From Rhodococcus maanshanensis NBRC 100610 (GTDB lineage Bacteria; Actinomycetota; Actinomycetes; Mycobacteriales; Mycobacteriaceae): a stretch of 46,915 nt of DNA. Below are positions 2,153 through 45,390 of this stretch, in pieces. The number at the start of each line of letters is the position of its first letter. Positions within the stretch are counted from its first letter, which is position 1. Under the pieces are notes generated by a model. That model had not been told where the DNA came from and made no database searches. It worked only from the letters and a program-made list of their open reading frames with translations. Both the position numbers and the translations under genes were made by a program. The stretch spans positions 1 to 46,915 of the forward strand of contig NZ_BCXA01000037.1 in the NCBI RefSeq assembly GCF_001894865.1, given 5' to 3'.

Positions 2153-2517
2153 GCGGCCAGCAACGCGGCGGCGGCGAGCATCGCGACAGCGGTGGCCCCG
2201 TGGATTCCATACGCGGCCTTGCGGTCACCGCCGTTGGACAGCACGACCCACATGTCGCCGAGGGGAACGACGGCGAGCAGCAGCATCAGGAGGGCGAGCT
2301 GGTCGCGCGCGGCGAAGCTGAAGACGATCACCAGCAGGCCCGAGGCGATGTCGCGGACGCCCTTGACCTGCCACCAGCCGCGCGCCTCCGGCGCCGGGCT
2401 GGTGGGCAGACCGAAGCCCGCCGCGTTCTTCGCATTCTTCCCCAGGTAGGCCACACCGATCGCGATGATCCCGAGCGCACCGATCCAGCTGATGACGAGT
2501 CCGATCCAGGTCAGCAT
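2149..2517 (-). CDS. DUF4267-type small integral membrane protein
   Basis: A 122-residue, four-helix membrane protein (hydrophobic segments near residues 3-22, 52-70, 72-88 and 99-120). The arrangement of a short hydrophilic loop with GFGLP after helix 1, then GVRDIASGLL, fits the DUF4267 family, whose function is unknown. I prefer the ATG at 2517 to the GTG at 2523: an AAAGG ribosome-binding site lies 7 nt before the ATG but only 1-2 nt before the GTG. It is the first gene of a two-gene unit with the cupin. A TetR gene diverges from it across an 80-bp gap containing two palindromes, suggesting local repression. Confidence 0.7.
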   Translation of the reverse strand: MLTWIGLVISWIGALGIIAIGVAYLGKNAKNAAGFGLPTSPAPEARGWWQVKGVRDIASGLLVIVFSFAARDQLALLMLLLAVVPLGDMWVVLSNGGDRKAAYGIHGATAVAMLAAAALLAA

Positions 2518-2597: not shown

Positions 2598-3164
2598 ATG
2601 GGAGTTCGGGAACGCAAGGAAAGGGAGCGGCAGGATCGCGAGCGCAAGATCGTCGAGTGCGCTCGGAGGATCGCCGAGAACGAGGGATGGCCCGCCGTGA
2701 CCACGCGGCGCCTGGCCGATGAGATCGAGTACAGCCCCCCGGTGCTCTACGGGCACTTCCCGGAGGGCAGGGACGGCATCGTCAGCGCGGTCGCGCTGAC
2801 GGGGTTCCGGGACTTCACCCTGGCCATGGGCCGGGCGCTCGATGGCATCGACGATCAGGGAAGACTGACGGCCTTCATCCGCGCCTACCTGACATTCGCC
2901 TCGGACAACCCCGCGACATACGAGGCCATGTTCTCGATGCGGCTGGGGGTTCGGTTCGCGCACGAATCGACCCCACCGGAACTGCGTGCGGGATTCGAGG
3001 TGCTGTCCTCGGCGCTCGGAGGCGGATCGACCGGCGACGCCGGGACCAGGGCCGAGGTCTTCTGGAGCGCGTTGCACGGAATGTGCGTGCTCACGCGCGG
3101 GGAGCGCCTCGCCCCGGACAACGAGGCCGCGCGTATCGCCGAGCTCGCCGCACTGTTCGGATGA
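2598..3164 (+). CDS. TetR/AcrR-family transcriptional regulator
   Basis: A 188-residue regulator. The N-terminal helix-turn-helix spans about residues 18-62 (IVECARRIAENEGW, then TTRRLADEIEYSPPVLYGHFPEG), a standard TetR DNA-binding domain. The C-terminal ligand domain is Trp- and His-containing (VFWSALHGMCVL), like the WHG-type C-terminal family. It is divergent from the DUF4267-cupin unit and a perfect palindrome overlaps its own promoter, so it probably autoregulates and controls that pair. The ligand is unknown. A strong bidirectional terminator follows. Confidence 0.85.
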   Translation: MGVRERKERERQDRERKIVECARRIAENEGWPAVTTRRLADEIEYSPPVLYGHFPEGRDGIVSAVALTGFRDFTLAMGRALDGIDDQGRLTAFIRAYLTFASDNPATYEAMFSMRLGVRFAHESTPPELRAGFEVLSSALGGGSTGDAGTRAEVFWSALHGMCVLTRGERLAPDNEAARIAELAALFG

Positions 3165-3169
3165 ACGCG

Positions 3170-3204
3170 AAAGGCGGCCACGCACCAGGTGCGTGGCCGC
3201 CTTT
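3170..3204. terminator. Bidirectional hairpin terminator between TetR and gpx
   Basis: A perfect stem of at least 15 bp (AAAGGCGGCCACGCA pairing with its complement at 3190-3204) around a 5-nt loop ends in TTTG. With runs of A and T at the two ends it can work in both directions, and it sits between the convergent TetR and glutathione peroxidase genes. Confidence 0.85.
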
Positions 3205-3218
3205 GTTCGGTTGCGTTG

Positions 3219-3710
3219 CTACTTCGGCAGCACGGCCTCGATGGCCGCGACGACCTCGGGCGCATCCGGCACGGTCGTCGGGCGGAATCGGTTCGCCACG
3301 GTGCCGTCCGGCGCGAGCAGGAACTTCTCGAAGTTCCACTGCACGTCGCCCGCCGCCCCCTCGGCGTCGGCAGCCTTGGTGACCTCGGCGTACAGCGGGT
3401 GCCTGCCCTCGCCGTTGACCTCGATCTTCTCCAGCAGCGGGAACGAGACGCCGTAGGTCGTCGAGCAGAAGGTCTCGATCTCCTCGGCGGTCCCGGGCTC
3501 CTGCCCCATGAACTGGTTGCAGGGCACGCCGACCACGGTGAGGCCGCGGTCCGCGTAGTCCTTGGCCAGCTGCTCGAGCGCCGTGTACTGCGGCGTGAGC
3601 CCACACTTGGACGCGACATTGACCAGCAGGATCGCGTTTCCGTCGTAGGCGCCGAGCGAGGTCGGGGACCCGCCGAGGGTGTTGATCTCGATGTTCAGGG
3701 GGTTCGTCAT
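3219..3710 (-). CDS. Glutathione peroxidase-family thiol peroxidase
   Basis: A 163-residue cytoplasmic peroxidase reducing hydrogen peroxide and organic peroxides. The catalytic set is visible: Cys36 (NVASKCGLT), Gln66 (GVPCNQF), Trp125 and Asn126 (VQWNFEKF). Cysteine replaces selenocysteine, and Cys82 (ETFCSTTYG) fits the resolving cysteine, so thioredoxin rather than glutathione is the likely reductant; actinobacteria of this group use mycothiol and thioredoxin. The start overlaps the upstream dctA stop by ATGA (3707-3710), so it is translated with the transporter. Pairing with a dicarboxylate symporter is unusual and the biological reason is not evident. Confidence 0.92.
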   Translation of the reverse strand: MTNPLNIEINTLGGSPTSLGAYDGNAILLVNVASKCGLTPQYTALEQLAKDYADRGLTVVGVPCNQFMGQEPGTAEEIETFCSTTYGVSFPLLEKIEVNGEGRHPLYAEVTKAADAEGAAGDVQWNFEKFLLAPDGTVANRFRPTTVPDAPEVVAAIEAVLPK

Positions 3711-5251: not shown

Positions 5252-6820
5252 GTGATCAGGTCCCGACGGCGCGCGAGTCTCGCAGGCCAGGTATTGGTGC
5301 TCCAGCTGCTGGTGCTGGCCGTGGTGGTGCTGACCGGCACCGTGGTGACGGTTCTCGACGAGCGACGCGACGCCGACGCGGCCACCGAACGCGAGGTGGC
5401 GGCGGTCGCCGAGTCGGTCGCCTGGGCCGATTCGACGGCGGCGGGGCTGCTCTCCCCCGACCCGACCGCGGCGCTGCAGCCGCAGACCGAGCGGATCCGG
5501 CTGGCCACCGGAATCGACTTCATCGTCGTGATGGCGCCGGACCGAACCCGGTACACGCACACCAATCCCGCACTGATCGGGCAGCCGTTCAGCGGCCACA
5601 TCGACCGTGCGTTGGCGGGCGAGACCTTCACCGAGACCTACGCCGGATCGCTCGGCCCGTCGATTCGCGCGGTGACACCCGTGTACTCCGACGGCCGCAT
5701 CGTCGGCCTGGTCGCGGCGGGCGTCACCAGGGAGCGGATCATCGACCAGTTCCTGCGCGGGCTGCCACTGCTGCTCGCGGTGACGGCCGTCGCCCTCGTC
5801 CTCGCGGCCCTTGGCTCGGTCCTGCTCAGCAGGCGACTGCGCAGGCAGACGCTCGGCCTCGCTCCGGCCGAGCTGCGCACCCTCTACGAGCACCACGACG
5901 CGGTGCTGCACTCGATCGGCGAGGGGCTGCTCGTCTTCGACGCGGGCTCAGACGTCGCCGAGGTGGTCAACGACGAGGCGCGACGCCTGCTGACCCTGCC
6001 CGACGGCCCGATCACCCGCGCGCAGCTGCCGGAGTCGCTCCGAACCCTCGGCCCGGGCCAGGTGAAGGACGAGGTCCACCTGACGGGCGACCGCGTGCTC
6101 GTGGTGAACCAGGATCCGGTCTCCTTCGAGGGGCGGGTGATCGGCACCGTCACCACCCTGCGCGACCACACCGAACTGCAGAGCATCACAGGGGAACTGG
6201 ATTCCGTACGGGTGTTCACCGAGTCGCTCCGCTCCCAGGCGCACGAGTCGGCGAACCGGCTGCACACGGTCGTCACCATGGTCGAACTCGGCCGCACCGA
6301 GGAGGCCGTCGCGTTCGCGACCGCGGAGCTCGCGCTGTCGCAGCACCTCATCGACCGGTTGACCACGGCCATCGCGGAGCCGGCCCTTGCGGCCCTGCTG
6401 CTGGGAAAGGTGAACCAGGCCGCCGAGCGGGGGGTGGATCTCACGGTCACCGACGACACCGCGCTGCCGACCACCGGTCCGCTCACCGCCCGCGAATTGG
6501 TCACGCTCGTAGGCAATCTCGTCGACAATGCCATCGACGCGGCGGGCACGGGCGCCGGGGACGAGCGGCCGTGGGTGGAGGTCACGATGCGCTCCGACGG
6601 CGCCGAGCTCAGCGTCCGGGTCGCGGACAGCGGACCGGGGATGTCGGCCGAGGCACTGGAGCGGGCCACCGCGCGGGGGTATTCGACCAAGTCCGATCAA
6701 CGCGGACTCGGTCTGGCGCTGGTGATGCAGGTGATCACCCGGCACGGCGGCTCCATCACCGCCGAGATGACCTACGGTTCGGTGGTCCTCGTCCGTATCC
6801 CCCTCGGAGGCAACGAATGA
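5252..6820 (+). CDS. CitA/DcuS-family sensor histidine kinase
   Basis: A 522-residue membrane kinase. TM1 (about 12-34) and TM2 (about 170-193) enclose an extracytoplasmic PAS/Cache-like sensor of about 135 residues, the CitA/DcuS/DctS layout that binds citrate or C4-dicarboxylates. A cytoplasmic PAS region follows (about 205-305). The H-box is SQAHESANRLHTV with His331, typical of this family, then an N-box (LVGNLVDNAIDAA), DSGPGMS and a GLGLALV G-box. The GTG start at 5252 has an AGAGGA site upstream. It shares ATGA with the response regulator. Divergence from dctA makes C4-dicarboxylate the best ligand guess; citrate is the main alternative. Confidence 0.88.
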   Translation: MIRSRRRASLAGQVLVLQLLVLAVVVLTGTVVTVLDERRDADAATEREVAAVAESVAWADSTAAGLLSPDPTAALQPQTERIRLATGIDFIVVMAPDRTRYTHTNPALIGQPFSGHIDRALAGETFTETYAGSLGPSIRAVTPVYSDGRIVGLVAAGVTRERIIDQFLRGLPLLLAVTAVALVLAALGSVLLSRRLRRQTLGLAPAELRTLYEHHDAVLHSIGEGLLVFDAGSDVAEVVNDEARRLLTLPDGPITRAQLPESLRTLGPGQVKDEVHLTGDRVLVVNQDPVSFEGRVIGTVTTLRDHTELQSITGELDSVRVFTESLRSQAHESANRLHTVVTMVELGRTEEAVAFATAELALSQHLIDRLTTAIAEPALAALLLGKVNQAAERGVDLTVTDDTALPTTGPLTARELVTLVGNLVDNAIDAAGTGAGDERPWVEVTMRSDGAELSVRVADSGPGMSAEALERATARGYSTKSDQRGLGLALVMQVITRHGGSITAEMTYGSVVLVRIPLGGNE

Positions 6821-7506
6821 TCCGCGTGCTCGTCGTCGAGGACGAACCGCTCATCGCGGAGGCACACCGCACCTACGTCGGCCGGGTGCCAGGTTTCACC
6901 GTGCACTCGGTGGTGCACACCGGCAGCGCCGCGATCCGGGCGGTCGCCGCGGCGAACGCCACCGACGAGCCGATCGACCTGATCCTGCTCGACCTCGGGC
7001 TGCCGGACGGCAGCGGCCTCGACGTCGCCGCCGCTCTCGGCGGGGTGCGGCCAACCCCCGACATCATCGCGATCACCTCGGCCCGCGACCTGTCGATGGT
7101 CCGCGCGGCCGTGGCGCAGGGCATCGTGCTGTACCTGCTCAAGCCGTTCACGTTCGCCGCATTCCGGGACAAGCTCGAGCGGTACCTCGAGTTCCGCCGG
7201 GCGCTGCCGACCGGCGAGAAGGCGGTCAGCCAGCGGGACGTTGACCGCGCGATGGCCGTCCTCCGGAGCACCGACGAGCGCATCTCCGCCACGAAAGGCG
7301 TTGCGCCGCAGACCCTGCAGGAGATCTCCTCCGCCGTGCGTGCCTCGGAAGCCGGCCTGAACGCCTCGCAGGCGGCGGACGCCGCCGGCGTCTCCCGGGT
7401 CACCGCCTGGCGGTACCTCGAGCGGATGGCCGAGGACGGACTGGTGGACCGGCACACGGAGTACGGGCGCGCGGGGCGGCCGCAGGTGCGTTACGTCTGG
7501 CGCTGA
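6817..7506 (+). CDS. CitB/DcuR-type response regulator
   Basis: A 229-residue two-domain regulator. The receiver domain has acidic residues 8-10 (VVEDEP), phospho-acceptor Asp59 (LILLDLGLPDGSG), a Ser at 88 in place of the usual threonine region, and Lys109 (YLLKPFTF). The C-terminal part (about 165-229) carries a winged or IclR-like helix-turn-helix (LNASQAADAAGVSRVTAWRYLERM), as in the CitB/DcuR/DctR group. It overlaps the kinase by ATGA, so the two form one expressed pair. Probable targets are dctA and its own operon through the CTCATGAA repeats. Its stop is only 3 bp from the convergent epimerase gene and no terminator is visible between them. Confidence 0.88.
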   Translation: MIRVLVVEDEPLIAEAHRTYVGRVPGFTVHSVVHTGSAAIRAVAAANATDEPIDLILLDLGLPDGSGLDVAAALGGVRPTPDIIAITSARDLSMVRAAVAQGIVLYLLKPFTFAAFRDKLERYLEFRRALPTGEKAVSQRDVDRAMAVLRSTDERISATKGVAPQTLQEISSAVRASEAGLNASQAADAAGVSRVTAWRYLERMAEDGLVDRHTEYGRAGRPQVRYVWR

Positions 7507-7509
7507 CCC

Positions 7510-8475
7510 TCACCCCTGCGCGGCGGGCACCCGCGTCGAGCCCGCATACGGACTCATCCGCAGCATGGCCCGCCGCGCGAACGGCCTGGCGAGCGGCATC
7601 AGGTGCCGCCGCCACCCGAGGGTCGCGGCGATGTCCGAGACGATGTCGTCGAAGACGCGACGCTGGTAGCCCAGCAGTCGCTGACCGGCCGCCGTGTCCA
7701 CCCAGTCGGTGGCGTAGACCTTGCCGCTGAACGCATCGTCCGGCAGCATGTCCAGGCCCATCGCGCCCAGCATCTCGGTCAGGAACTGCCGATAGGTGAT
7801 CTGACAGCCCGCACCGCCGCCGAGGAACAACACCCGGCCCCACACCGCCGGGGTCTCGAGGGCGTTCGCGACCGCGACCGCGGCGTCGTCGGGGTGCAGC
7901 ACCTCGATCCGGTTCTCCAGGCCGATCTCGAACATGATCGGGTCCGGCTTGCGCAGGCCCAGGATCGGGACATCGGCGAAGCGCGGGATGAACCAGTCCA
8001 GGCCGGACTCCCGCACCATGTCCTCGCCCTCGATCTTGTGCGCCGTGTACGCATCGGTGGCGACCCGGGGGTCGTCCACCCGCCGCGGCGGGTCCCGATC
8101 CAGCGTGTGGCCGTGCACGTCGAAGGTGGAGGCGAACAACAGCTTCGGCGGCCGCGGCTGGGCCAGGCAGGCGTCGACGACATTGCGGGTGCCGTCCACG
8201 TTGATCTGCCTGGCCAGCTCCGGATCGGCGTCGCTCGCGGGCGGGATCATCGCCGCCAGATGCAGCACCGCCTCGACGCCGGCGACGGCCGCCGCGACCA
8301 CCTCGGCGTCCCGGATGTCCCCCCACACCGCGTCCACCCCCGCGAACCCGCGCGCCCGGCGGCGGTCCTCGGGGGTGTCCAGCGCCAGGCATCTGACCCG
8401 GTGACCGCGGCGAAGCAACTCGGCGAGCACGTGCGAGCCGATGTTGCCGAACGCGCCGGTCAGCAGGAGGTTCAT
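7510..8475 (-). CDS. NAD-dependent epimerase/dehydratase (extended SDR)
   Basis: A 321-residue extended short-chain dehydrogenase. The N-terminal Rossmann motif is GAFGNIG (residues 7-13) and the catalytic YxxxK is Tyr143/Lys147 (DAYTAHK), with Ser116/Thr117 nearby. The substrate cannot be read from sequence. It is the last gene of a minus-strand unit with the DapB-fold dehydrogenase (ATGA overlap 8472-8475) and the SDR, so it probably acts on an intermediate of the same pathway. The unit is regulated by the divergent TetR. Confidence 0.82.
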   Translation of the reverse strand: MNLLLTGAFGNIGSHVLAELLRRGHRVRCLALDTPEDRRRARGFAGVDAVWGDIRDAEVVAAAVAGVEAVLHLAAMIPPASDADPELARQINVDGTRNVVDACLAQPRPPKLLFASTFDVHGHTLDRDPPRRVDDPRVATDAYTAHKIEGEDMVRESGLDWFIPRFADVPILGLRKPDPIMFEIGLENRIEVLHPDDAAVAVANALETPAVWGRVLFLGGGAGCQITYRQFLTEMLGAMGLDMLPDDAFSGKVYATDWVDTAAGQRLLGYQRRVFDDIVSDIAATLGWRRHLMPLARPFARRAMLRMSPYAGSTRVPAAQG

Positions 8476-16134: not shown

Positions 16135-16291
16135 TGTCGCGGTGTTCGGGAAGTCCGGTGCAAAGCCGGCGCGGTACTCGCCACTGTGAGCAGGTACGTC
16201 GGCTACTCGGGGTCAATCCCAGCCACTGGATGCGCATGCGTCCGGGAAGGCGTAGCCGGCGGCCATCCCTGCCGAGCCAGGAGACCGGCCG
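16135..16291 (+). ncRNA. Cobalamin (B12, AdoCbl-type) riboswitch
   Basis: Conserved aptamer blocks occur in the right order: GGGAAGTCCGGTGCAAAGCC early (from about 16148), then GCCACTGTGA (16190-16199), AGCCACTGGATGCG (16221-16234), GGGAAGGCG (16244-16252), and the B12 box GCCGAGCCAGGAGACC (16271-16286). The RNA lies in the leader of the transporter operon. A ribosome-binding sequence sits about 35 nt beyond the B12 box, so control is probably at translation initiation, with high B12 shutting the operon. Exact 5' and 3' edges are approximate. Confidence 0.95.
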
Positions 16292-16338
16292 TGACACATA
16301 CCTGCACGTTTTCCACGAGTCATGGAAGGCGGGTCGCT

Positions 16339-17346
16339 TTGCGCACCCCTGTTGATCTTCGAGTTCACGCGCGGGTGTCACCGCGCGTCCTCGCCACGGC
16401 CGCGGCGTCCGTCGCCGCCGCCCTCGCCCTTGCCGCCTGCACCACCGGTTCCGCGGAGTCGGGAACCGCGACCATCTCCCTCGCGAACTGCGGCCGCACC
16501 GTGACCCTCGACGGGCCTGCCGAACGCGGTGTCACCCTCAACCAGGGCGCCACCGAGACCGCGCTGTCGATCGGCGCGCAGGATCGGATGGCGGGCACGG
16601 CCTATCTGGACGACGCCATCGCACCGCAGTGGGCCGCCGCCTACGCGCAGGTCCCTGCGCTCGACGAGAAGGACTACCCCAGCCGCGAGGCCCTCCTCGA
16701 GGCCAAGCCCGACCTCGTGACGGCGTCGTACTCGGGCGCGTTCGACGACAAGGCCGTCGGCTCGCACGAGTCGTTCGACGAGCTCGGTGTCGCCACCTAC
16801 GTCTCCCCCTTCGGCTGCAAGGACAAGTCGACGCGACCCGCGGTCGCCTGGGATTCGATCGGCTCCGAGATCACCGACTACGGGACCATGTTCGGACGCG
16901 AGGACGAGGCCGCGGCGGTGGTCGCGCAGATGCGCGAGACGCTGGCGGGCATCGAGTCCGCCGCGCCCGCGAAGGGCAAGAGCATCTTCTGGTACGACAG
17001 CAACACCACGACGCCGTACGTCGGAGCGAACGCAGGCGGGCCGCAGCTGATCATCGACGCGGTCGGCGGCACCAACATCTTCGCCGGCACCGCCGGGTCA
17101 TGGGCGGACGGCAGCTGGGAGACGGTGCTGGCCGCGAACCCGGACGTCATCGTCCTCGCCGACGCCTCGTGGGACACGGCCGAGGAAAAGAAGGCCTACC
17201 TGCGCGGCGACCCGGCGCTCAAGGACCTGAAGGCGGTGCGCGACGACGCGTTCGTCGTGGTCCCGTTCTCGACGACCACCCCGGGTCCGCGCACGATCGA
17301 GGGCGCGAGCCTGGTCGCCGGGCAGCTGGGCGGCGACGGGGCGTGA
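16339..17346 (+). CDS. BtuF-like ABC transporter substrate-binding lipoprotein
   Basis: A 335-residue class III periplasmic-binding-type protein. The signal peptide ends in a lipobox (LALAAC, Cys34), so the mature protein is anchored outside the membrane. A TTG start at 16339 with GGAAGG upstream is preferred; GTG at 16375 is an alternative giving a shorter signal with Cys22. The fold follows the BtuF/FhuD pattern (helical linker around 180-200). The cobalamin riboswitch upstream points to B12, cobinamide or another corrinoid. Related actinobacterial cassettes have been annotated as putative F420-0 transporters, but the riboswitch argues against that here. It is coupled to the permease by GTGA. 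Confidence 0.82.
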   Translation: MRTPVDLRVHARVSPRVLATAAASVAAALALAACTTGSAESGTATISLANCGRTVTLDGPAERGVTLNQGATETALSIGAQDRMAGTAYLDDAIAPQWAAAYAQVPALDEKDYPSREALLEAKPDLVTASYSGAFDDKAVGSHESFDELGVATYVSPFGCKDKSTRPAVAWDSIGSEITDYGTMFGREDEAAAVVAQMRETLAGIESAAPAKGKSIFWYDSNTTTPYVGANAGGPQLIIDAVGGTNIFAGTAGSWADGSWETVLAANPDVIVLADASWDTAEEKKAYLRGDPALKDLKAVRDDAFVVVPFSTTTPGPRTIEGASLVAGQLGGDGA

Positions 17347-18401
17347 CCGCGTCCACCCGGGCACCGATCCGGGCAGCCGCGACGACCGGCACCGCCTGGT
17401 CGGCGATCCTGATCGCGCTGCTCGCGGTGAGCTGCGCGGCCGGGGTCGCGATCGGCGCGGCCGACCTGTCGATCGGCACGGTCGTCGAGTCGATCGCCGG
17501 ACGGCTCGGTATCGGACCCGGCACCGACCTGCTCACCACGCACATCGTCGTCGACCTGCGGATGCCGCGGGTGCTGGCGGCCGCCGCGATCGGCGCGGGC
17601 CTCGCCCTGTGCGGCGCCGTGCTGCAGTCGCTGACCGGCAACCCGCTGGCCGACCCCTACCTGCTCGGCATGTCGGGGGGCGCGTCGTTGGGCGCGGTCC
17701 TGGTGCTCACCACCGGTGCGAGTGCGGTGGGCGCCTTCGGATTCGGTGCCGTCTCGTCGGCGGCGTTCCTCGGCGCCCTCGGGAGCCTGCTGCTGGTGTT
17801 CGTCATCGCGACGTCCCGGTCCGGGGCACTGATGCCCGGCCGGCTCGTCCTCGCCGGGATAGCGGTTGGGCAGCTGGCCGCGGCGCTCACGTCGGCGTTG
17901 GTGCTGTTCGGCGACCGCGACGCCGCCCACCGGGTGCTGAGCTGGACCCTCGGCTCGGTGGCGGGGGTGCGCTGGTCGGGTCTGGTCGGCATCCTGATCG
18001 TCGTCGCGGTGACGATGACGATCGTCCTTGCCTACAGCCGGGTGCTGGACTCGTTCGCGTTCGGTGAGCGCGCCGCCGCGAGCCTCGGCACCAACGTCGA
18101 GCGCACCCGCTGGGTGCTGTACGCGGTGGCGTCGCTCTGCACGGCGGCATTGGTCGCGCAGGCGGGCATCATCGGGTTCGTCGGCCTCGTGGTGCCGCAC
18201 GCGGCCCGCATGCTCGTCGGGCCACTGCACGCGCGACTGCTCCCGGTGGTGGCCCTGATGGGAGCGCTGCTGCTGGTGTGGGCCGACATCGCCGCCCGCA
18301 CCGTCATGCCGGGGCGCGAGCTGCCGATCAGCATCGTCACCGCCATCGTCGGGGTCCCGGTGTTCGTGTGGCTGCTCCGACGACGGGGAGTTCGCGCATG
18401 A
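17343..18401 (+). CDS. BtuC/FecCD-family ABC transporter permease
   Basis: A 352-residue inner-membrane permease with about ten hydrophobic segments. Family blocks include LRMPRVLAAAAIGAGLALCGAVLQ (about 65-88), NPLADPYLLGMSGGASLGA (about 98-116) and a C-terminal GIIGFVGLVVPHAAR, which contacts the ATPase. It starts at the GTG at 17343, overlapping the lipoprotein stop, and ends overlapping the ATPase start by ATGA. With its neighbours it forms a type II importer probably for cobalamin or a precursor. Confidence 0.9.
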   Translation: MTASTRAPIRAAATTGTAWSAILIALLAVSCAAGVAIGAADLSIGTVVESIAGRLGIGPGTDLLTTHIVVDLRMPRVLAAAAIGAGLALCGAVLQSLTGNPLADPYLLGMSGGASLGAVLVLTTGASAVGAFGFGAVSSAAFLGALGSLLLVFVIATSRSGALMPGRLVLAGIAVGQLAAALTSALVLFGDRDAAHRVLSWTLGSVAGVRWSGLVGILIVVAVTMTIVLAYSRVLDSFAFGERAAASLGTNVERTRWVLYAVASLCTAALVAQAGIIGFVGLVVPHAARMLVGPLHARLLPVVALMGALLLVWADIAARTVMPGRELPISIVTAIVGVPVFVWLLRRRGVRA

Positions 18402-19210
18402 CGCACCACTCTCCCGACATCCGGGTCGAGGACGTCTCCTGGTCCGCGGGGGGCAGGCGGATCCTCGACCAAGTGTCGTGCACGGCCCCGGCCGGGCGGG
18501 TCACCGGGTTGATCGGACCGAACGGGTCGGGCAAGACATCGCTGCTGTCGACCATCGCCCGGCTCGAGAGTCCCGACAGCGGACGCGTGCTGCTCGGCGA
18601 CATCGCATCGACCGCGATGCACCGGCGCGAGTTCGCGCGCACCGTCGCGCTGGTGGAACAGCACTCGGCGACCGAACTGGACCTGACGGTGGAACAGATC
18701 GTCGAGCTCGGCGCCATCCCGCACCGCGGCGGCTGGGCACGCCCCGCCGCGCTCGGCACGGGCGAGCTGGTCACCGACTGCCTCGAGACGGCGGGGATCA
18801 CCGATCTGCGACACCGGTTGTGGCAGAGCCTGTCCGGCGGCGAGAAGCAGAAGACCCAGCTGGCCAGGGCGTTCGCGCAGCGGCCCTGCGTGCTGCTGCT
18901 GGACGAGCCGACCAACCACCTAGACGTCTCGGCCTCGCTCGAGCTCCTGGAACTGATCCGGGCGAGGGGGCTGACCACGGTGGCCGCGATGCACGACCTG
19001 AACCTGGCCGCGATGTACTGCGATCACCTGGTGGTGCTGTGCGACGGCCGGGTGACCGCCGAGGGCCCGACGGAGTCGGTGCTGACCGCCGATCTGCTCG
19101 CGGAGGTGTACGGGCTCGACGCCCTGGTGCAGCCTCATCCACGGACGGGACGACCGCTGGTGGTGCTGTGCGGCACCGCCACCGAGACCGCCGAAAGGGC
19201 CGCGCCATGA
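18398..19210 (+). CDS. BtuD/FecE-like ABC transporter ATP-binding protein
   Basis: A 270-residue ATPase of the corrinoid/siderophore importer class. Walker A is GPNGSGKTS (about residues 38-46), signature LSGGEKQKTQ (about 146-155), Walker B VLLLDEPTNHLD (about 166-177), and the switch His lies in AAMHDLNLA. It starts at the ATG overlapping the permease stop and ends in an ATGA shared with the next gene. It powers the upstream permease; the riboswitch implies a corrinoid substrate. Confidence 0.92.
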   Translation: MTHHSPDIRVEDVSWSAGGRRILDQVSCTAPAGRVTGLIGPNGSGKTSLLSTIARLESPDSGRVLLGDIASTAMHRREFARTVALVEQHSATELDLTVEQIVELGAIPHRGGWARPAALGTGELVTDCLETAGITDLRHRLWQSLSGGEKQKTQLARAFAQRPCVLLLDEPTNHLDVSASLELLELIRARGLTTVAAMHDLNLAAMYCDHLVVLCDGRVTAEGPTESVLTADLLAEVYGLDALVQPHPRTGRPLVVLCGTATETAERAAP

Positions 19211-19959
19211 CCATGGTTCAGCAGTCCCGCTGGGTGATCGTGACCGCACCAACCGACCGCGGGGACGATCCCCGCGATCAGGTGCTCGGGGCGCTGCGGG
19301 TGCTGCGGGACCGGCACCCGGACACCGCCTTCGTGACGGCGGTGCTCGGCGGCTCGGGGACATCGGTCACGGTCGCGCTCGACGAGGCGGCCGCGTCCGG
19401 CGCGACCGAGGTGGTGGTCGTGAGCGCCCAGACGGTGCTCGACCGCAAGATCGACGCGTGGTTCCGCCGCGTCATCGGACACTGGTTGCGCGAGCGCGGA
19501 TCCGATGGGCCCGACGTCCGCCTCGCCGGTCCGCTGAGCGGCACCGACACGTACGCCGATCTGCTCGACGCCGCGATCTCCGGCCCCACCGCCGCGGCCC
19601 GCACGACCACCGCGCCCCTGACCTCCCCCGCGTGGGACGAGGTCCCAGGCTTCGCCCGGCACGTCCTGGTGTGCCGTGGCCCGCGGTGTTCGGCCCGCGG
19701 CGGTCCGGAGACCGCGCAGACACTGGACAACGCGCTCGAGGCCCGCGGCCTTGGCGACGACGACGTCCTCGTCACCCAGACCGGCTGCATGTTCCCGTGC
19801 TCGCAGGCCCCGGTCGTGGCGGTGTATCCCGACAACTCCTGGTACGCCGAACTGCGAGCCGACCGGGTCCAACGGTTCGTCGACGAACACCTCGTCGAGG
19901 GCAGGCCCGTCACCGAGTGGAGCGGGGCGCGGCGGCCATCTGACACCCTGGAGGCATGA
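19207..19959 (+). CDS. CbiX-like domain fused to a thioredoxin-like [2Fe-2S] ferredoxin domain
   Basis: A 250-residue two-domain protein. The N-terminal part (about 1-125) has the alternating alpha/beta pattern of CbiX/sirohydrochlorin chelatases, but the usual HGS metal-binding histidine motif is absent (IVTAPTDRGDDPR), as is the second conserved His after the central strand, so it may not chelate cobalt. The C-terminal part (about 150-235) resembles thioredoxin-like [2Fe-2S] proteins, with Cys156, Cys161, Cys194 and Cys198 (CRGPRC and CMFPC) as cluster ligands. It lies fourth in the B12 riboswitch operon, coupled on both sides by ATGA. A redox role in handling an imported corrinoid or cobalt is plausible but unproven. 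Confidence 0.72.
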   Translation: MTMVQQSRWVIVTAPTDRGDDPRDQVLGALRVLRDRHPDTAFVTAVLGGSGTSVTVALDEAAASGATEVVVVSAQTVLDRKIDAWFRRVIGHWLRERGSDGPDVRLAGPLSGTDTYADLLDAAISGPTAAARTTTAPLTSPAWDEVPGFARHVLVCRGPRCSARGGPETAQTLDNALEARGLGDDDVLVTQTGCMFPCSQAPVVAVYPDNSWYAELRADRVQRFVDEHLVEGRPVTEWSGARRPSDTLEA

Positions 19960-20249
19960 CCCCAGCCGCACCCCGCGTCACCGTCACCTACTGCACGCAG
20001 TGCAACTGGCTGCTCCGGGCCGGCTGGATGGCGCAGGAACTGCTGAACACATTCGGCACCGATCTCGGCGAGGTGGCCCTGATCCCGGGCACCGGCGGCG
20101 TCTTCCGGATCGAGATCGCCGACGAGCTGCTGTGGGACCGCGCCAGGGACAACGGTTTCCCCGACATCGCGGCCCTCAAGCAGTTGGTGCGCGACGTGGT
20201 GGCGCCGGATCGCGACCTGGGCCACACCGACCGCAAGCGCGACCGCTGA
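19956..20249 (+). CDS. SelW/Rdx-family CxxC thioredoxin-like protein
   Basis: A 97-residue protein of the SelT/SelW/SelH (Rdx) family. The redox motif Cys13-Thr-Gln-Cys16 (VTYCTQCNWLLRAGWMAQEL) sits at the end of the first strand; both positions are cysteine, not selenocysteine. GTGGVFRIEI and FPDIAALKQLVRD match the rest of the fold. It closes the five-gene B12 operon, overlapping the upstream gene by ATGA. The redox partner is unknown; the adjacent [2Fe-2S] protein is the obvious candidate. Its stop is 4 bp from the convergent PLP-enzyme gene. Confidence 0.85.
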   Translation: MTPAAPRVTVTYCTQCNWLLRAGWMAQELLNTFGTDLGEVALIPGTGGVFRIEIADELLWDRARDNGFPDIAALKQLVRDVVAPDRDLGHTDRKRDR

Positions 20250-20253
20250 TCGC

Positions 20254-21264
20254 TCAGTCCCCGCGCGGGCCGTAGGTGTCGACCACGAGCACGGGCCCGT
20301 CGCCAAGGGTGCCGTCCGCGTCCATCGCCAGCGCGCCCGCGAGCGCCTTCGCGGTGTAGACGGGGTCGAGGGTCAGCCCGTGGTCGGCGCCGACCCGCAG
20401 CGCGGCCGATCCCTCCGGCGTGCCGAACCCGTATCCGGGCCCGAGCCAATCGCGGGTCACGGTGATCGCTCCCGGCTCGAACTCGACAGGGCCGAGCGCG
20501 GCCCCGCGCCGGGTGAGGAGCCGCGCGGTCTTGCCTGCCAGCCCGACGAGGTCCCGCTCGGCCAGCGGCAAGGTGTCGTTGACGACCACCCCGACCACCC
20601 GGGTACGCAGGCCGGCCAGGTGCAGTCCCAGCAGCAGCCCGGCCGCGGTCCCGCCCGAACCCACCGGCGTCACCACGTGCGTCGGTTCCGGCATCGCGCC
20701 CGCCTCGACCTGCGCGGCCAGCTCCAGCGCGGCCTCCACGTAGCCGAGCGTCCCGAGGCGCGAGGATCCGCCCGCGGGCAGGAAGTAGGGCAGGTGCCCG
20801 CCGCGCGCGTGCCGCACCATCAGCCACGGCGCCGCCGCGATCGTGCGGGCCTTCGTCCTGGTGAAATGCAGTGCGGCACCGGAGCGCCGCAGGCGTTCGA
20901 GCTGTTCGTGCACGTGCTCGTCCATCGGCTGATCGATCAGGGCCAGGGCCGTGTCGATGCCGAACTCGCGGGCGTACAGGGCCGTCGCCAGCCCCCAGTT
21001 GGTGCCCTGTCCGCCGACAGTGAAGATCTGCCGGGAACCACGGGCGAGGACGTCCGGGATGATCCACTCCAGCTTGCGCACCTTGTTGCCGCCCCAGCCG
21101 CCCGCGCCGTAGACGCCCTCGTCCTTGCACCACAGCCGGTTCGCCCGGCCAAGCCCCTCCAGGTGGGCGATCGGGGTCGGGCCGGAGCCGAGCCTGCGGT
21201 ACGGGAGGGTCGCCTCGAGCTCCGGGAAGAGCCGATGCAGCGCGGGGCCGGTCGTCTGGTCCAT
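20254..21264 (-). CDS. PLP-dependent ACC deaminase/D-cysteine desulfhydrase-family enzyme
   Basis: A 336-residue fold-type II PLP enzyme. The lysine for the Schiff base is Lys61 in GGNKVRKLEW, a block specific to the ACC deaminase/D-cysteine desulfhydrase group; the phosphate-binding GSGGTAAGLLLG follows at about 202-213. Which reaction it does (ammonia release from D-cysteine or D-serine, or from 1-aminocyclopropane-carboxylate) cannot be decided from sequence. It lies 8 bp after the HIT gene on the same strand, so the two are probably co-transcribed. Confidence 0.82.
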   Translation of the reverse strand: MDQTTGPALHRLFPELEATLPYRRLGSGPTPIAHLEGLGRANRLWCKDEGVYGAGGWGGNKVRKLEWIIPDVLARGSRQIFTVGGQGTNWGLATALYAREFGIDTALALIDQPMDEHVHEQLERLRRSGAALHFTRTKARTIAAAPWLMVRHARGGHLPYFLPAGGSSRLGTLGYVEAALELAAQVEAGAMPEPTHVVTPVGSGGTAAGLLLGLHLAGLRTRVVGVVVNDTLPLAERDLVGLAGKTARLLTRRGAALGPVEFEPGAITVTRDWLGPGYGFGTPEGSAALRVGADHGLTLDPVYTAKALAGALAMDADGTLGDGPVLVVDTYGPRGD

Positions 21265-45075: not shown

Positions 45076-45390
45076 ATGGCATGGATTGTGCTCGTCATTT
45101 CCGGCATCTTCGAGGCCGTCTGGGCCACCGCCCTCGGCAAGTCCGAGGGTTTCTCGAAGCTCAACCCGTCGATCATCTTCGGCGTCGCCCTCGTGATCAG
45201 CATGGGCGGACTCGCCTACGCGATGCGCACCCTCCCCATCGGCACCTCGTATGCGGTGTGGGTCGGTATCGGCGCGTCCCTCACGGTCGCCTACGCGATG
45301 CTCACCGGCTCCGAGTCGTCGTCGATCGTGAAGATCCTGCTGATCCTCGGCATCGTCGGCTGCGTGATCGGACTCAAGGTCCTGCACTGA
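45076..45390 (+). CDS. gdx: SMR-family guanidinium exporter (Gdx/SugE)
   Basis: A 104-residue four-helix protein of the small multidrug resistance family, acting as an antiparallel dimer in H+/guanidinium exchange. The essential Glu13 is in GIFEAVWATALGKSEGF, the sequence typical of Gdx (SugE) rather than EmrE-like pumps, and the fourth helix is ILLILGIVGCVIGLKVLH. The guanidine-III riboswitch directly upstream decides the substrate. A GGGAG site is 9-10 nt before the ATG. A weak hairpin (45401-45415) follows the stop codon. Confidence 0.93.
   Translation: MAWIVLVISGIFEAVWATALGKSEGFSKLNPSIIFGVALVISMGGLAYAMRTLPIGTSYAVWVGIGASLTVAYAMLTGSESSSIVKILLILGIVGCVIGLKVLH

Follow-up and report, generated by a model that had tools for sequence, protein, structure and literature searches.

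A cobalamin riboswitch-led operon of Rhodococcus maanshanensis joins a BtuFCD-like importer to a candidate corrinoid reductase combining a degenerate CbiX-like domain with a [2Fe-2S] ferredoxin

The window analyzed here, the whole stretch of 46,915 nucleotides that makes up contig NZ_BCXA01000037.1 of Rhodococcus maanshanensis NBRC 100610, carries a run of five genes headed by a cobalamin riboswitch (Table 1), as the original prediction had proposed: the aptamer scores 86 bits against an RF00174 gathering score of 31.5 (E 6.2e-20) and begins 12 bases upstream of the start first assigned to it (16135). All four junctions are indeed 4-bp overlaps, GTGA at one and ATGA at three; such overlaps suggest coupling but give no ratio, so that the accompanying claim of proteins made in fixed ratio exceeds the evidence. 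Between the aptamer and the first gene, RNAfold predicts a hairpin in which TTTTCC (16309-16314) pairs with the Shine-Dalgarno sequence GGAAGG (16324-16329) and masks it, and this hairpin is probably a translational expression platform. The Shine-Dalgarno sequence and the start codon (TTG or GTG) are both kept in 12/12 aligned leaders, with GTG found in L029-L031 at the site equivalent to the TTG of the window.

Table 1. Coordinates and supporting matches of the features of the cbxF operon
Feature	Position	Strand	Evidence
Cobalamin riboswitch aptamer RF00174	16123..16307	+	86 bits, model 1-189 complete
Predicted hairpin	16308..16330	+	RNAfold; sequence kept in 12/12 aligned leaders
btuF-like gene, substrate-binding protein	16339..17346	+	PF01497 Peripla_BP_2, 99.2 bits; TTG start
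btuC-like gene, permease of the FecCD family	17343..18401	+	PF01032, 287.6 bits
btuD-like gene, ATPase	18398..19210	+	PF00005 ABC_tran, 108.6 bits
cbxF, fusion of a degenerate CbiX-like domain and a thioredoxin-like [2Fe-2S] ferredoxin, 250 aa	19207..19959	+
CbiX-like N-domain of CbxF, about residues 1-140, both chelatase histidines lost	19207..19626	+	hhalign 98.2%
W85-x2-R88-x3-H92-W93 signature	19459..19485	+	alignment of 48 sequences
Thioredoxin-like [2Fe-2S] ferredoxin domain of CbxF	19654..19926	+	Cys 156, 161, 194, 198
selW-like gene, Rdx family, CxxC = CTQC	19956..20249	+	PF10262, 107.1 bits

The first three genes were correctly recognized as encoding a BtuFCD-like importer, since the Peripla_BP_2, FecCD and ABC_tran families of Pfam were all matched, and the BtuF-like protein has a lipoprotein-type leader as judged by eye. 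All three subunits score below the NCBIfam equivalog cut-offs (BtuF, 30.5 of 234; BtuC, 227.6 of 461 and 210 of 334; BtuD, 109.3 of 281). The riboswitch and the regulon nevertheless suggest that this importer carries corrinoids: host riboswitches also lead metE and cbtA, a sub-threshold site (26.2 bits) lies ahead of cobN, and the host B12 regulon is thus of a familiar type. Since the host has cobN, it probably makes B12 itself.

The fourth gene, for which we coined the label cbxF, encodes a protein whose C-terminal part contains the four-cysteine [2Fe-2S] domain that had been predicted: the cysteine codons (C156 at 19672, C161 at 19687, C194 at 19786 and C198 at 19798) show NuoE-like spacing, and the Pfam 2Fe-2S_thioredx family is matched at 25.6 bits (cut-off 24.8). 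All four cysteines are found in 46/47 relatives, and L019 has lost cluster cysteines while retaining the N-domain signature described below. The C-x4-C...C-x3-C domain is common to CbxF, thioredoxin-like [2Fe-2S] ferredoxins, NuoE and the HydB N-domain, and the best PDB sequence matches of the CbxF domain are 7t2r_B and 1f37_A. Whereas such ferredoxins otherwise stand alone or form part of a dehydrogenase, the one of CbxF is fused to a chelatase-like domain.

That N-terminal half had been called a CbiX-like domain, an assignment that is invisible to Pfam searches up to E 1 but is supported by profile-profile comparison with hhalign (probability 98.2%, E 4.8e-14; 20 column-shuffled controls reached no more than 0.36%, and the ferredoxin half 0.2%). 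The reported loss of both metal-binding histidines was also confirmed in the window protein. At the first site, where 22/28 CbiX domains have HG at their start, CbxF has PTD (15-17) aligned with RGS in the relative L043; at the second, the profile alignment places I82. Two relatives, L070 and L044, have a histidine near the second site, and an ungapped alignment puts a serine at the site itself in L070. As the window CbxF has neither histidine, we rejected chelatase activity for this protein. The domain has instead a signature of its own, W-x2-R-x3-H-W, which is absent from all 28 CbiX domains: among 48 sequences, both tryptophans are found in 48/48, R or K in 48/48 and the histidine (His92 in the window) in 43/48, and no other histidine or cysteine of the N-domain reaches half of the sequences. 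A derivation from the RGS-type half of long CbiX, which is non-catalytic, was not supported either: 3/4 sequence groups are closer to HGS-type profiles, a preference that held in size-matched subsets; in the fourth group (L070, L043 and L044), the RGS profile scored within the spread of the HGS subsets of matched size.

CbxF is therefore kin, by profile comparison, to the class II sirohydrochlorin chelatases, but differs from CbiX in its thioredoxin-like [2Fe-2S] tail and in being encoded with an importer. Its architecture is reminiscent of that of CbiXL, a CbiX chelatase with an attached Fe-S center, which however has a 4Fe-4S center and a histidine-rich region according to passages of PMC7689651. 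Altogether, CbxF appears to be an iron-sulfur protein not described before, with a metal-inserting enzyme, now disabled, as its scaffold.

The distribution of cbxF is sparse but recurrent across several families of Actinomycetota: it was found in 8/200 genomes of the order (host included) and in 33/394 genomes of the class. A riboswitch adjoins cbxF in 44 of the 50 other loci and points towards cbxF or its gene run in 42; six loci have none adjacent (G188, G346, G325, G565, G749 and G818), with a weak site 7.6 kb upstream in G818. The gene order btuFCD-cbxF is found in 16/20 class-level loci, and btuFCD and a riboswitch are present at 16/16 named loci; since these named loci were collected through a CbxF search, they show only that cbxF accompanies the importer and not the reverse. 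In L244, where it adjoins bluB, and in L250, a stand-alone riboswitch-cbxF unit has no importer in the examined stretch, and in L016 a stand-alone cbxF has a weak riboswitch site of its own, which lies opposite a ribonucleotide reductase gene headed by a riboswitch. A CobW-type GTPase gene adjoins cbxF in two related genomes, one of which also has cbtA close by. The proposed co-conservation of the five genes, followed from BtuF in the 200 genomes of the order, held for cbxF in the four closest matches (the host, G136, G074 and G191; identity at least 44%) but not beyond, the next 20 operons examined by BtuF being all without cbxF. When mapped on a BtuC tree, cbxF requires at least four gains or losses, some of which rest on long branches, and these changes may include losses as well as gains.

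The 20 operons without cbxF revealed another protein in the same slot: six of them encode an FhuF-type [2Fe-2S] protein after btuD, and all six are among the 12 led by a riboswitch (6/12, vs 0/8 without one). The other six riboswitch-led operons have neither gene in the examined stretch, so that importers can do without both. In L200 and L203, a riboswitch near recA also leads a stand-alone FhuF-type gene. The FhuF protein of E. coli, a [2Fe-2S] reductase of ferric siderophores, thus acts on an imported metal complex; it folds as a helix bundle and has the motif C-C-x10-C-x2-C (as given in passages of PMC8068687). No sequence kinship with CbxF was found: Pfam detected no FhuF_C motif in CbxF up to E 1, and no chelatase domain in the replacement FhuF-type proteins.

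The last gene does encode the predicted SelW-like CxxC protein (PF10262, 107.1 bits vs a cut-off of 22.6; TIGR02174, 63.9 vs 34.2). It is present in 9/11 Rhodococcus/Prescottella loci, 0/5 Gordonia loci and 0/20 class-level loci, and none of seven other SelW homologues in the 200 genomes lies within 1.5 kb of cbxF operon genes. This distribution rules out SelW as a core part of the system; the selW-like gene is a local, lineage-specific addition.

On balance, and judging from sequence comparisons, we consider it somewhat probable that the operon serves to scavenge corrinoids under B12 control and that CbxF acts in it as a cytoplasmic corrinoid reductase and upper-ligand remover. The earlier idea that these genes handle an imported corrinoid by redox chemistry suits CbxF well, which keeps company with riboswitches and importers, also occurs as a stand-alone riboswitch-cbxF unit and is replaced elsewhere by an FhuF-type protein, and falls for SelW as a core component. 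When coenzyme B12 is scarce, the Shine-Dalgarno site would be freed and the importer and CbxF would be made together. BtuFCD would then import a Co(III) corrinoid (hydroxo-, cyano- or alkyl-cobalamin, or cobinamide), which the former chelatase fold, no longer inserting metal, would hold, perhaps base-off with His92 as an axial ligand, while the tethered [2Fe-2S] domain would deliver one electron to the cobalt, which would become Co(II) and shed its upper ligand. The reduced corrinoid would be passed on for adenosylation. In part of Rhodococcus/Prescottella, the SelW-like thiol-redox protein may have been added as a reductant or thiol partner, and in related operons the FhuF-type protein would fill the part of CbxF. 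Several observations argue against this proposal: the rarity of cbxF, the six riboswitch-led operons that lack both genes, the six cbxF loci without an adjacent riboswitch, the probable B12 synthesis of a host with cobN, and the closest named matches of the importer subunits, discussed below. In addition, work cited in a passage of PMC8088520 holds that no dedicated enzyme is required either for decyanation or for reducing corrinoids.

The loss of cluster cysteines in L019 also counts against a reductase and would better fit a corrinoid chaperone, whose chelatase fold would take up the imported corrinoid and deliver it to an adenosyltransferase or methionine synthase, with the cluster being structural or a redox sensor. 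The N-domain signature persists in all 48 sequences (H92 in 43), L019 with its lost cluster ligands included, and the Fe-S center of the CbiXL chelatase is dispensable for catalysis, as stated in part of PMC7689651. We nonetheless regard a chaperone as unlikely, given the cluster cysteines in 46/47 relatives and given that the slot is taken elsewhere by another [2Fe-2S] protein without a Pfam chelatase domain, a replacement that speaks for electron transfer more than for a carrier role.

It is less likely again that the cargo, reduced or otherwise handled by CbxF, is no corrinoid but a cobalt chelate or an F420-0-like ligand. Among named families, those of a putative F420-0 ABC transporter (TIGR03868/03869/03873) do score best for each importer subunit, but all three scores miss the curated cut-offs (264.9 vs 392.4; 309.5 vs 437.35; 303.7 vs 372.4), on which ground F420-0 transport was rejected. 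Moreover, a cobalamin riboswitch leads the operon here as well as 12/20 related importers, and bluB lies near three relatives tested.

Slightly more doubtful still is a reverse chelatase that would strip cobalt from unusable corrinoids and feed the host's own CobN pathway. The cobalt release included in the original prediction draws on the CbiX kinship and on the cobalt-related neighbors, CobW-type GTPase gene and cbtA, of some relatives; in the host, RF00174-family sites also precede cobN and cbtA, a cobalt transporter gene. Yet the window protein lacks both CbiX histidines, His92 is the sole N-domain histidine or cysteine shared by at least half of the 48 sequences, and the extraction of cobalt from a corrin is a very difficult reaction. 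That CbxF is an Fe-S regulator switching the importer by redox state or iron supply agrees with the overlap of cbxF and btuD but seems very improbable in view of the riboswitch-cbxF units with no importer in the examined stretch (L244, L250 and L016). A chance neighborhood, with cbxF and selW as mere passengers lacking a B12 role, is scarcely credible: it may hold for the lineage-specific selW, but for cbxF a riboswitch adjoins 44/50 loci against about 1% expected (hand arithmetic from about 5 sites in 5 Mb and 5 kb either side, the loci being partly non-independent).

Removal of the upper ligand from an imported corrinoid, the task proposed for CbxF, is known from BtuM and CblC/MMACHC, to which CbxF is likened by its proposed task; CblC probably has a different fold. 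BtuM acts through a cysteine ligand within a membrane protein (PMC6072759). For M. tuberculosis, decyanation of imported B12 is marked as not determined in a part of the review PMC12713380, and for M. smegmatis the relevant passages of PMC8088520 name no dedicated decyanation or reduction enzyme. Among the matches listed from the open-licence PMC literature, the text retrieved describes neither CbxF nor an FhuF-type protein as a B12 gene.

More broadly, we tentatively propose, with somewhat less confidence than for the operon itself, that Actinobacteria may possess riboswitch-controlled, dedicated [2Fe-2S] corrinoid reductases of at least two origins, one from a dead CbiX that became a corrinoid-holding domain joined to a ferredoxin, with His92 as a new axial ligand, and the other from a recruited FhuF-type ferric-siderophore reductase. 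CbxF and the FhuF-type protein are two concrete decyanase candidates tied to B12 riboswitches. If this proposal is true, they would account for the decyanases still missing from B12 salvage in Actinobacteria, and CbxF would be a case in which the fold of a metal chelatase has come to serve electron transfer to a tetrapyrrole that is already complete.

A cobalamin riboswitch followed by five genes with four-base overlaps had been predicted in the window, and this arrangement was confirmed, with all junctions overlapping by four bases. A predicted hairpin over the Shine-Dalgarno GGAAGG is retained in 12/12 aligned leaders (the window and 11 relatives), which also place the btuF start codon, TTG or GTG, at a single position. 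The best NCBIfam relatives of the neighboring PLP enzyme are XcbE and the D-cysteate sulfo-lyase CuyA, far under their cut-offs. Elsewhere in the window, a guanidine-III riboswitch directly precedes a SugE-like gene, which is a known kind of pair.

Features of the operon and of the guanidine riboswitch locus in the window
Feature	Position	Strand	Remark
Cobalamin riboswitch RF00174	16123-16307	+	86 bits
btuF-like	16339-17346	+	Pfam names importer part
btuC-like	17343-18401	+	Pfam names importer part
btuD-like	18398-19210	+	Pfam names importer part
cbxF (250 aa)	19207-19959	+	Pfam: thioredoxin-like [2Fe-2S] domain
SelW/Rdx protein gene	19956-20249	+	Pfam Rdx
PLP enzyme	20254-21264	-	Pfam; converges on selW, beyond operon end
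Guanidine-III riboswitch RF01763	44999-45061	+	63.7 bits
SugE-like small multidrug resistance gene	45076-45390	+	93.8 bits, under NCBIfam cut-off (126), over Pfam's

Pfam did not detect CbiX in CbxF, the CbiX-like/[2Fe-2S] fusion, and a PDB profile search returned one weak match, the sirohydrochlorin ferrochelatase 6jv6 (E 0.04). A profile-profile comparison of 21 CbxF N-terminal domains with 28 actinobacterial CbiX domains gave 98.2% (E 4.8e-14), against at most 0.36% for 20 column-shuffled profiles and 0.2% for the ferredoxin half. As originally predicted, both chelatase histidines are missing from this domain in the window protein, which has PTD where its relative L043 has RGS, and I82 at the second site. 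An alignment of 48 CbxF sequences has W85 and W93 in every row, R or K at position 88 and H92 in 43 rows, while the signature W85-x2-R88-x3-H92-W93 occurs in 0/28 CbiX domains. All four cluster cysteines (C156, C161, C194 and C198) are present in 46/47 CbxF relatives; the sole exception is L019, where the N-domain signature persists and where the gene without the cluster cysteines, at 6310-6798 (+), is the last of an operon that contains two copies each of btuF and btuC. These comparisons indicate that CbxF derives from CbiX but lacks its chelatase site. Three CbiX-family matches were found elsewhere in the host genome, at two places. RF00174 sites also precede the host metE and cbtA, and a sub-threshold site (26.2 bits) lies immediately before cobN; the host therefore has the B12-synthesis gene for cobalt insertion, along with a familiar B12 regulon.

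Searching genome contigs with CbxF gave 16 loci (11 Rhodococcus/Prescottella and 5 Gordonia), a count that may omit records very near the window, and btuF-btuC-btuD-cbxF with an upstream riboswitch was found in 16/16. At the order level, cbxF was detected in 8/200 genomes, host included, and a riboswitch adjoins it in 6 of the 7 others, G188 having none. Two of these (G074 and G136) carry whole operons, G191 has cbxF with btuF only next to the riboswitch, and in G150 cbxF stands alone, with a weak site (33.6 bits) of its own. In G014, a riboswitch leads a btuCDF set, and cbxF is placed ahead of that riboswitch; in G031, a cbxF that lost its cysteines follows two btuF, two btuC and one btuD, in a run headed by a riboswitch 5.2 kb upstream.

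At the class level, 33 of 394 genomes matched the N-domain profile, 28 of them new: 20 were fetched, 3 more were checked for riboswitches only, and 5 weak matches (E 5e-10 to 9e-9), which may be ordinary CbiX, were left out. The btuFCD-cbxF order was found at 16/20 fetched loci and a riboswitch at 18/20, 14 inside the fetched stretch and 4 just beyond it, ~4 kb upstream of cbxF (G726, G663, G741 and G595). The L253 riboswitch is on the opposite strand, directed away from cbxF; G749 has none within 20 kb, and the weak site of G818 (33.8 bits, 7.6 kb upstream), the only one there, was excluded from the count. The three extra genomes (G764, G617 and G804) have a riboswitch ~3 kb upstream. Among the matches listed for 396 genomes of the phylum, 4 further relatives cover the N-domain, one with riboswitch and importer (G237), one with the importer only (G346) and two adjoining a CobW-type GTPase gene (G325 and G565; GTPase scanned in G325 only); the remaining listed matches start at model position 105 or later, thus covering the ferredoxin half and some linker. 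Altogether, a riboswitch was found at 44/50 cbxF loci, 42 oriented towards cbxF or the gene run that holds it (the exceptions being G014 and L253), which counts loci rather than independent events, as species may repeat between sets and relatives share ancestry. Mapped onto a BtuC tree with 57 rows, the distribution of cbxF requires at least 4 gains or losses, the exact number being unsure because some changes sit on long branches (L019, L017 and L069).

Several loci had other neighbors. In L070 and L072, a CobW-type GTPase gene, confirmed by Pfam in L072, adjoins the CbxF relative; L072 also has cbtA nearby. Neither locus has a riboswitch over the cut-off, and these relatives possibly have an older cobalt-related role. 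L016 has two divergent cobalamin riboswitches, at 7142-7213 (-) before cbxF and at 7436-7655 (+) in front of the gene for the alpha subunit of a ribonucleotide reductase. In L250, a tRNA gene at 3006-3077 (+) ends ~120 bases before the riboswitch at 3201-3391 (+) leading a stand-alone cbxF.

Co-conservation of the five genes across Mycobacteriales, proposed as a check of the operon, held only in part. BtuF matched in 64 of 200 order-level genomes, and the four closest matches (host, G136, G074 and G191) all have cbxF, but it was found in 0/20 of the next operons (34 to 43% identity; a second BtuF copy in G036 was skipped), 12 of which have a cobalamin riboswitch. Thus, cbxF is tied to some importer lineages, not most. 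The selW-like gene follows cbxF in 9/11 Rhodococcus/Prescottella loci, but in 0/5 Gordonia loci (within 8 kb) and 0/20 class-level loci; close SelW relatives occur in 8/200 order-level genomes, host included, and the 7 non-host ones are not beside cbxF or importer genes within 1.5 kb. The SelW-like gene is a local addition to the operon.

In 6 of the 12 riboswitch operons lacking cbxF, the product of the gene after btuD ends with a CC-x2-Y...C-x2-C motif, which was found in this slot in 0/8 operons without riboswitch. All five slot proteins scanned passed the FhuF_C cut-off, and L165, the sixth, shares 87% identity with one of these; the other 6 riboswitch operons showed neither CbxF nor an FhuF-type protein in the fetched stretch. 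Relatives of the slot protein occur in 51/200 genomes, and btuC/btuD lies within 1.5 kb at 9 of the 30 loci examined; longer stretches of four FhuF-type operons (L197, L205, L206 and L208) all had a riboswitch upstream. Among the FhuF relatives that are more distant, many probably function as siderophore reductases. Six importer-less loci of close relatives belong to one genus of the window's family, probably mycobacteria, with recA near 5 (read from sequence; RecA confirmed for L200). Two have their own over-threshold cobalamin riboswitch directly before the FhuF-type gene, at 2204-2334 (-) in L200 and 2160-2281 (-) in L203, which suggests a B12 role outside any importer operon; the other 4 had none over the cut-off. 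Near two FhuF-bearing operons (L156 and L161) and the stand-alone cbxF of L244, bluB was also found.

Our searches of open-licence literature found no CbxF biochemistry. Decyanation in M. tuberculosis is described as not determined in one report (PMC12713380), and the relevant part of another names BtuFCD genes but no decyanase in M. smegmatis, citing work that says none is needed (PMC8088520). For E. coli FhuF, the potential was measured as -0.36 V at pH 7.4 (PMC8068687). From sequence conservation, we would guess that the CbxF N-domain carries the corrinoid and that His92 serves as axial ligand. Altogether, the gene arrangements indicate that the B12 riboswitch links B12 import alternately to two unrelated [2Fe-2S] proteins, CbxF with its chelatase-derived domain and one of the ferric-siderophore reductase type. 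The simplest common task for both would be to reduce the imported Co(III) corrinoid, with release of its upper ligand.
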